DNA from: a virus
Length of the DNA: 42,663 nucleotides
IMG/VR virus record: IMGVR_UViG_3300044631_002537
Span: 1-42,663 of that record
Direction: 5' to 3' (one strand)
In this document: piece after piece, positions 4,192 through 29,758 of the stretch
How the letters are laid out: every line of letters starts with the position of its first letter
Numbering within the stretch: the stretch's first letter is position 1
The notes under the pieces: model-generated
What the model was told of the DNA's origin: nothing
What the model saw: only the letters and a program-made list of their open reading frames with translations
Databases searched by the model: none
Made by a program: the position numbers and the translations under genes

Positions 4192-4249
4192 GGTAAACAA
4201 ATGTTACGGATTTCTCATAAATCTTAACATTGTCAACACCCCTTAAACC

Positions 4250-4335
4250 GAGACCTCTAGGGTGTATAAATTACGTCTCTCATACCCAGTCTGAGGGTGA
4301 CTGGGGAATAGTATCACCACCATTTCCCTGATGGT
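4250..4335 (+). ncRNA. Structured 5' leader of psbA (candidate cis-regulatory RNA)
   Basis: Within the leader CCCAGTC (4285-4291) pairs perfectly with GACTGGG (4299-4305). ACCAT (4319-4323) pairs with ATGGT (4331-4335), and GAGAC (4250-4254) with GTCTC (4275-4279). Competing pairings exist: GGGTGT 4260-4265 with ATACCC 4282-4287, and GGTGA 4296-4300 with TCACC 4314-4318. No good Shine-Dalgarno precedes the psbA ATG. Conserved RNA motifs called PhotoRC-I/II are known upstream of psbA in marine cyanobacteria and their phages; this may be one, but I could not align it. Confidence 0.5.
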
Positions 4336-29361: not shown

Positions 29362-29390
29362 TTGAATAGATATTGTAATGGGTCTATAAT
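29362..29390 (+). promoter_or_regulatory. Sigma70 promoter of the YRGV micro-protein leader
   Basis: TTGAAT (29362-29367), 17-nt spacer, TATAAT (29385-29390). The expected start near 29397 gives a leader of about 126 nt before ATG 29523. Confidence 0.8.
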
Positions 29391-29403
29391 GACCTTACGT
29401 TCA

Positions 29404-29492
29404 TCCAGGAAACTGGACGCAAGTAGGACGGCGGAACGGAACGTTCATTTGCTATTTGCAAATAGCAAACGCAAACCGCCCGAAGGAACGGG
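29404..29492 (+). ncRNA. Structured 5' leader RNA (candidate cis-regulatory element)
   Basis: Three structural parts: TCCAG-GAAA-CTGGA hairpin with a GNRA tetraloop (29404-29417); a perfect 22-nt palindrome (29448-29469, two 11-nt arms) enclosed by GGCGG (29430-29434) and CCGCC (29476-29480); and CCCG (29479-29482) pairing with CGGG (29489-29492). The last two stems share bases 29479-29480, so they exclude each other. GC content is well above its surroundings. A strong GGAGG (29510-29514) follows 8 nt before the ATG. No known Rfam family could be assigned by eye. Confidence 0.6.
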
Positions 29493-29522
29493 ACTAATCA
29501 TCTCATTCTGGAGGAAATCCTA

Positions 29523-29660
29523 ATGTCTAAAGTAGTATATCGCGGTGTTGAATACGATACGCAAAAGCGTCTTGAGTATCAACAGCAAATGATGCAGCAA
29601 CCTCAACAGTACAACGAAGTTTATCGCGGAGTTAAGTACACTAAGGAGGGTCATAAGTGA
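29523..29660 (+). CDS. YRGV-repeat micro-protein (DUF4278-like)
   Basis: 45 residues with two copies of a Y-R-G-V-x-Y step: VVYRGVEYDTQKR near the start and EVYRGVKYTKEG near the end, joined by a Gln/Met-rich linker (QQQMMQQPQQYN). This two-step pattern recalls the small cyanobacterial DUF4278 family. GGAGG lies 8 nt upstream. It stands behind a strong promoter and structured leader, so it is probably abundant early in infection. Function is unknown. Confidence 0.75.
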   Translation: MSKVVYRGVEYDTQKRLEYQQQMMQQPQQYNEVYRGVKYTKEGHK

Positions 29661-29758
29661 TGAAAAAACTCAACGTACTTCAACTCATCAAAGAGCAGAA
29701 ACAAAAGGAGAATCGTCGTCACCAGGCATCACTTGCACAACTTATTGGAAATAAGTAA
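29660..29758 (+). CDS. Basic helical micro-protein
   Basis: 32 residues (MKKLNVLQLIKEQKQKENRR...), Lys/Gln/Arg-rich and predicted as one amphipathic helix ending in LAQLIGNK. AAGGAGGG 10 nt upstream gives an excellent ribosome site, and the ATG overlaps the previous stop (TGATG). Likely coexpressed with the YRGV protein. Function is unknown. Confidence 0.62.
   Translation: MKKLNVLQLIKEQKQKENRRHQASLAQLIGNK

Follow-up and report, generated by a model that had tools for sequence, protein, structure and literature searches.

A phage leader RNA predicted to be a glutamine-I riboswitch with a second, permuted aptamer core nested in its P3 arm

The stretch of DNA analysed here (the window) comprises the 42,663 nucleotides of the IMG/VR virus record IMGVR_UViG_3300044631_002537. 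The gene order at the locus is SpeD, leader, YRG gene and thymidylate synthase, as in S-PM2, and the window is therefore assigned to a T4-like cyanophage. The leader and its neighbouring features are as follows.

29362-29390, plus strand: sigma70-type promoter, with the -35 box TTGAAT at 29362-29367, a 17-nt spacer and the -10 box TATAAT at 29385-29390
29398-29491, plus strand: predicted nested double glutamine aptamer, 94 letters as a whole (RF01739, 40.7 bits; nested model R1, 87.0 bits; covariation)
29510-29514, plus strand: Shine-Dalgarno GGAGG, from the sequence
29523-29660, plus strand: putative regulated gene, encoding a 45-aa YRGV micro-protein (phrog_5049, E 1e-10)
29657-29758, plus strand: second small ORF, 33 aa from the GTG at 29657 or 32 aa if it starts at the ATG at 29660 (weak match to phrog_545, E 0.011)

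The initial annotation had described this region as a GC-rich regulatory leader RNA preceding YRGV genes. Both boxes of the promoter it reported were located with the 17-nt spacing, and from their position the transcript would start at about 29397. In the relatives, a -10-like box is found within the upstream 30 nt in 150 of 175 cases, mostly 7-8 nt from the aptamer, against a background of 24%. The GNRA hairpin (29404-29417, UCCAG GAAA CUGGA, capped by GAAA) and the perfect 22-nt palindrome TTTGCTATTTGCAAATAGCAAA (29448-29469), flanked by GGCGG (29430-29434) and CCGCC (29476-29480), are present as described, as is the GGAGG, with an ATG at 29523. GC enrichment was also observed (0.49 over 29380-29499, compared with about 0.24-0.40 in nearby flanks). 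In single-sequence folding the whole leader is only slightly better than shuffled sequences (z -1.2), so homology and covariation have to carry the argument that the RNA is structured; the leaders of the relatives contain conserved, covarying pairs, which supports a regulatory leader RNA in front of these genes.

With regard to the downstream genes, a YRG protein is encoded directly downstream of the element in 163 of 171 relatives. The 45-aa YRGV protein of the window scores 19.3 against DUF4278 (PF14105), below the gathering score of 25.3 (E 0.0015), and is called DUF4278/IF17-like here by resemblance. In the glutamine synthetase inhibitor IF17, DUF4278 spans the N-terminal part; cyanobacterial glutamine aptamers are associated mainly with DUF4278 genes (PMC6316151). 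The ORF at 29657 is possibly on the same transcript as the YRGV gene. Across 29523-29758, the ORF from 29660 matches the N-terminal part of phrog_545 and the YRGV ORF its C-terminal part, a pattern that resembles the fused 55-aa protein of other phages, split and reordered.

An Rfam cmscan matched RF01739 (glutamine-I, glnA) to 29396-29494 of the window with 40.7 bits, above the cut-off of 35. RF01704 (glutamine-II) reached 27.3 bits over the same leader, under its cut-off of 33, and membership of glutamine-II was rejected. The manA, wcaG and PhotoRC families, to which the initial annotation had pointed for comparison, gave no match at the leader in the Rfam scan; a PhotoRC-II RNA (RF01717, 82.4 bits) lies elsewhere on the window, at 4225-4319. 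The cmscan alignment and the pair counts give an outer aptamer with a three-way junction of P1, P2 and P3, a loop E adjoining P3, and a Watson-Crick 23-60 pair in all 50 aligned relatives (C-G in 36, G-C in 14). By homology, the segment 29398-29491 is assigned to the type-1 glutamine riboswitch aptamers and is predicted to bind glutamine. RF01739 exceeds its cut-off in only 3 of 13 phage isolates tested, and it reads the S-PM2 element as two weaker serial halves (33.3 and 24.4 bits). A covariance model of the nested form, R1, gives 93.4 bits for S-PM2 and 87.0 bits for the window, but these scores are not independent evidence, as R1 was trained on these same elements, including the window sequence and S-PM2-like relatives.

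The leader might instead belong to a new RNA class with no glutamine aptamer, built around an alternative CCCG/CGGG stem that had been proposed to switch the RNA between two folds. This stem exists (29479-29482 with 29490-29493) and is part of the computed fold of the window, and the leader is indeed GC-rich and structured. Nevertheless, the stem is kept in 4 of 98 short-loop relatives, so the switch based on it is not conserved, and RF01739 exceeds its cut-off on the leader. A new class is therefore very improbable. The initial interpretation is partly supported, in that the leader is a regulatory RNA in front of YRGV genes. It appears to be a glutamine-I aptamer, a class that the initial annotation had not named, carrying a nested second core, and the following parts are assigned to it.

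29398-29403, plus strand: outer strand a, the P1 5' strand CGUUC (29398-29402) and an A; invariant in 50 of 50 relatives
29404-29417, plus strand: outer P2 hairpin, UCCAG-GAAA-CUGGA; compensatory changes in 3 of 4 counted pairs
29418-29425, plus strand: outer strand b, CGC followed by the 5' half of loop E, AAGUA; long-range pair of C29420 with G29491, a C-G or G-C pair in all 50 relatives
29426-29431, plus strand: 5' strand of the shared P3, GGACGG; 34 strand combinations, nearly all complementary
29433-29439, plus strand: inner strand c', GGAACG with G60' at 29439; GGAACG invariant, 60'-23' pair in 49 of 50 relatives
29434-29438 with 29442-29446, plus strand: P1' of the inner module, with GAACG as its first strand
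29442-29447, plus strand: inner strand a', a second copy of CGUUCA, placed on the 3' side of the c' with which it pairs; no variation among the 50 relatives
29448-29469, plus strand: inner P2' hairpin, formed by the 22-nt palindrome; covariation at all 4 counted pairs
29470-29475, plus strand: inner strand b', CGCAAA, with a covarying long-range pair between C29472 and G29439
29476-29481, plus strand: 3' strand of the shared P3, CCGCCC; complementary across relatives
29482-29491, plus strand: outer strand c, made up of the 3' half of loop E (GAAG), the P1 3' strand (GAACG) and G60 at 29491

The palindrome and its GGCGG/CCGCC arm, although real, had thus gone unrecognised as the P3 of a glutamine aptamer holding a second core. 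In the Rfam model, the interval from AAGUAGG to CCGAAGG is variable. In the relatives from IMG/VR and in named phages, it takes the form P3-GGAACGS-n(2 or more)-CGUUCA-hairpin-CGSAAA-P3', which gives the inner core the strand order c'-a'-b', not a-b-c, with the glutamine-site strands permuted. P2' in the relatives is CCCAAUGGG, another stem, or a loop holding an ORF of 49-67 aa. From these sequences, the P3 arm of the first core probably contains a second glutamine core in circularly permuted form, that is, a strand-swapped tandem. The hairpin UUYGCUAUUYGCAAAUAGCRAA, found at 29448-29469 of the window and as P2' of many relatives, is conserved in sequence as well as in pairing among lineages with different P3, and may be a site for a protein or a hairpin that spreads.

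The same RNA could be drawn as an ordinary tandem, in which a-b-c' forms one aptamer and a'-b'-c another, the two being independent and pseudo-cooperative. As the strand order of both arrangements is identical, the test is which strands pair. Both modules of the window carry C-G, so that it cannot separate the two by itself and the relatives carry this test. Among the matches listed, 176 distinct elements were parsed, of which L019 and L110 are true tandems; the pair counts are based on an alignment, A1, of 50 diverse representatives. The long-range pair within each module is Watson-Crick in 50 of 50 relatives for the outer core and in 49 of 50 for the inner core, compared with a shuffle mean near 30, and occurs as both G-C and C-G among lineages. 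With the partners swapped as in a tandem, each pair forms in 29 of 50, which is the level of chance in shuffles, and 21 of 50 become G-G, C-C or A-G mismatches each way. On this covariation, serial tandem pairing was rejected. Among the distinct elements listed, the departures from within-module pairing are L019 and L105 only. On a tree built without the columns concerned, the G/C state changed at least 4 times for the outer pair and at least 8 times for the inner pair, one of these being the state in L105. The search patterns limited some of the long-range bases to G or C, but never their combination; the patterns and the parser fix other parts of the core, whose lack of variation is therefore in part a product of the search. 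All sequence counts are inflated by relatedness, and the frequencies, drawn from relatives listed in IMG/VR, are no estimate of abundance.

Other features of the alignment are also those of the nested form. Compensatory changes occur in P2, in P2' and at the outermost P3 pair, and RNAalifold recovers P1, P2, P1' and P2' of the nested form unaided. P1 and P1' are invariant and therefore neutral as covariation. The 34 strand combinations of P3 contain A.C mismatches at fixed places. Columns 43 and 108 of A1, in P3, hold A.C, C.A or U-A and almost never another combination, which suggests a conserved A.C wobble adjoining loop E. All insertions seen in nested elements fall within hairpin loops predicted by the nested model, namely P2' (78 elements among the matches listed), P1' (S-B43) and the outer P2 (Sf-FS3). 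The tandem arrangement does have points in its favour: RF01739 reads S-PM2 as two serial matches, glutamine doublets are common in a tandem-riboswitch survey (PMC9481103), and true tandems exist in other phages (L404-L410). However, it would split loop E across both aptamers, whereas each copy in these true tandems has a full loop E, and the 6-9 nt from AAGUA to GGAACG make a P3 hairpin impossible. Taken with the chance-level swapped pairs, we regard a serial tandem as quite improbable and retain the nested arrangement.

The inner module has the CGUUCA, CGS and GGAACGS strands, P1', P2' and the 23'-60' pair, so that all of these core elements are present, but its loop E is absent in the window (CGCAAA/CGGAACG) and, among the elements listed, present in L105 only. 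Of 33 nested elements from a scan unconditioned on the inner module, 32 have loop E in b and c and lack it in b' and c'. L105, which retains a complete inner loop E, looks like an evolutionary intermediate. Without loop E, the inner core could have a low affinity. In the glutamine-II structure, glutamine is contacted by C1, G2, G18, C39 and G40 (PMC6698751), and the strands a', b' and c' carry all of these bases without variation in the 50 relatives. The closing pair of that structure is C19:G41 (PMC6698751), which we equate with 23-60 of glutamine-I by our own numbering map. A glutamine-II aptamer cut into two strands still binds (PMC6698751); connectivity is thus not essential, which makes a permuted core plausible. 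It is unlikely, though somewhat less so than a serial tandem, that the inner module binds no ligand and that its GGAACG and CGUUCA act as decoys for the outer P1 in a strand-displacement switch. The inner hairpin repeats the GAACG/CGUUC of outer P1 exactly, the unconstrained folds of the window use it, and the missing inner loop E would also fit. Such a switch, however, requires no invariant CG in b', no covarying P2' and no 23'-60' pair whose two bases change together, G-C in some relatives and C-G in others. L105 also retains a complete inner loop E. A second ligand site thus remains the preferred reading of the inner module.

Nested elements occur in named isolates including S-PM2, Bellamy, P-TIM68, P-SSM7 and S-SM2. 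The element of the window is a short form with no in-loop ORF; that of S-PM2 is short as well, whereas those of S-SM2 and P-SSM7 carry the ORF. In 78 distinct IMG/VR elements among the matches listed, the inner P2' loop is 138-245 nt long and holds an ORF of 49-67 aa; those tested include matches to phrog_504 and phrog_13397. The start codon lies 3-5 nt past the inner CGUUCA and, in 71 of 78, at least its first base is inside the uninterrupted P2' stem. The C-terminal residues, mostly DAND or DAKAD, are encoded by inner b' and P3, and in 77 of 78 the stop (UGA in 55, UAA in 22) consists of the last base of P3 and the first two of outer c. Substitutions by codon position are 1260:640:2406, a pattern like that of coding sequence, and the ORF is annotated as a gene in the records of P-SSM7, S-SM2 and S-SKS1. 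Phage S-B43 (L393, 976-1548) has a 190-aa homing-endonuclease-like ORF in its P1' loop (phrog_314, E 1.3e-8); both P2 loops of Sf-FS3 contain ORFs. A further 17 distinct loci listed (including L002, L003, L010, L014, L018 and L040) have a glutamine-I aptamer whose P3 holds another kind of large conserved insert, GAAAACCUC...GCAAGUACC...GGGAACGAGACCGAAAG; further sequence that looks structured lies beyond it. A tmRNA (ssrA-type) reading of these inserts was rejected, as ARAGORN called no tmRNA in any of five loci examined with it.

The homology, the promoter position, the nested pairing and the association with YRG genes are best explained, with a probability of about 0.8, by a phage type-1 glutamine riboswitch of two interlocked aptamer cores that would control the translation of the YRGV protein. 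In the strand order a-b-c'-a'-b'-c, a and b would pair with c to form the outer core, and a' and b' with c' to form the inner core, giving two three-way junctions back to back on a single shared P3. Each core is predicted by homology to bind one L-glutamine. As P3 is common to both, folding or binding of one core would stabilise the other, and the response would be steeper than that of a single aptamer. The ligand state would then act on translation of the downstream YRGV (IF17/DUF4278-like) micro-protein.

Concerning the direction of control, imposing the aptamer in computed folding leaves Shine-Dalgarno accessibility in the window unchanged (0.27 to 0.26), so that folding gives no ON or OFF signal for the window. 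In the G-C clade, where C60 starts an anti-Shine-Dalgarno CUCUUU, accessibility rises from 0.04 to 0.30 and goes up in 31 of 35. Because the C-G clade of the window has no such change, we infer an ON direction from the host homologues; glutamine raises expression of cyanobacterial genes linked to the aptamer (PMC6316151).

We propose more tentatively, with slightly less than even confidence, that the interlocked, mutually permuted aptamers bind glutamine cooperatively through the shared helix and that the element also serves as a gene cradle, controlling two genes in opposite senses. In the sister phages, the inner, ligand-dependent hairpin would hold the start codon of the in-loop ORF in paired form, and the ORF ends at a stop that overlaps with the outer aptamer. 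Translating this ORF and adopting the glutamine-bound fold would therefore be mutually exclusive, and a single RNA could control both genes in this manner.

When compared with known systems, the element shares with glutamine-I (RF01739; cyanobacterial gifB and DUF4278 leaders) the P1 CGUUC/GAACG, P2, the loop E AAGUA/GAAG, the long-range 23-60 pair and a DUF4278-like gene downstream, but its P3 carries a second, permuted core. The tandem glutamine doublets (PMC9481103; phage L404-L410) also have two cores and the strand order a-b-c-a-b-c; in the nested form, by contrast, partners are exchanged, loop E is in the outer core only, and one P3 is shared where the doublets have two. Glutamine-II (Downstream-peptide, RF01704) has the ligand-site strands CGUUCA, CGS and GGAACGS, lacks loop E as the inner core does, and precedes a small gene, whereas the nested c' lies 5' of a' and is closed by the P3 of the outer aptamer. 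In the domain-swapped dimer of the glutamine-II crystal (6QN3, PMC6698751), sites are likewise made of exchanged strands, but that form is intermolecular and crystalline, whereas the phage element is intramolecular and evolutionarily conserved.

Among the sequences searched, the nested form was seen only in viral contigs and phage isolates. When about 85,000 prokaryote species were scanned with the exact pattern, none of the 35 matches was cyanobacterial by title and none was a full element, and a host origin of the nested form was rejected. The excerpted accounts of cyanophages S-CREM1 and S-H34 and of methylophage Melnitz (PMC9964418, PMC10665884, PMC9004378) already annotate glnA RNAs, given there as Rfam hits or simple riboswitches, and these excerpts contain no inner core, in-loop ORF or pairing analysis. 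The 2022 tandem-riboswitch survey puts its 157 glutamine doublets in the pseudo-cooperative class, and no mention of the nested form was found when its text was searched (PMC9481103); some of the 157 could be nested, because RF01739 reads S-PM2 as two serial halves. Cyanophage glutamine riboswitches and glutamine tandems are thus known. We could not find a nested or permuted riboswitch in the literature searched, although an earlier mention in key glutamine-I papers or their supplements is possible, and the nested arrangement with in-loop genes is apparently undescribed.

If correct, this would be a natural circularly permuted (strand-swapped) aptamer nested within a second aptamer of its class; neither the RF01739 model nor the tandem survey (PMC9481103) represents this topology. 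Cooperativity of RNA aptamers would become testable by simple pair-swap mutants, and coding sequences would be packed within an RNA of predicted ligand-binding function. The small protein that would be controlled resembles a domain of the cyanobacterial glutamine synthetase inhibitor, and our results suggest that many cyanophages sense host glutamine, a nitrogen signal, to control it.
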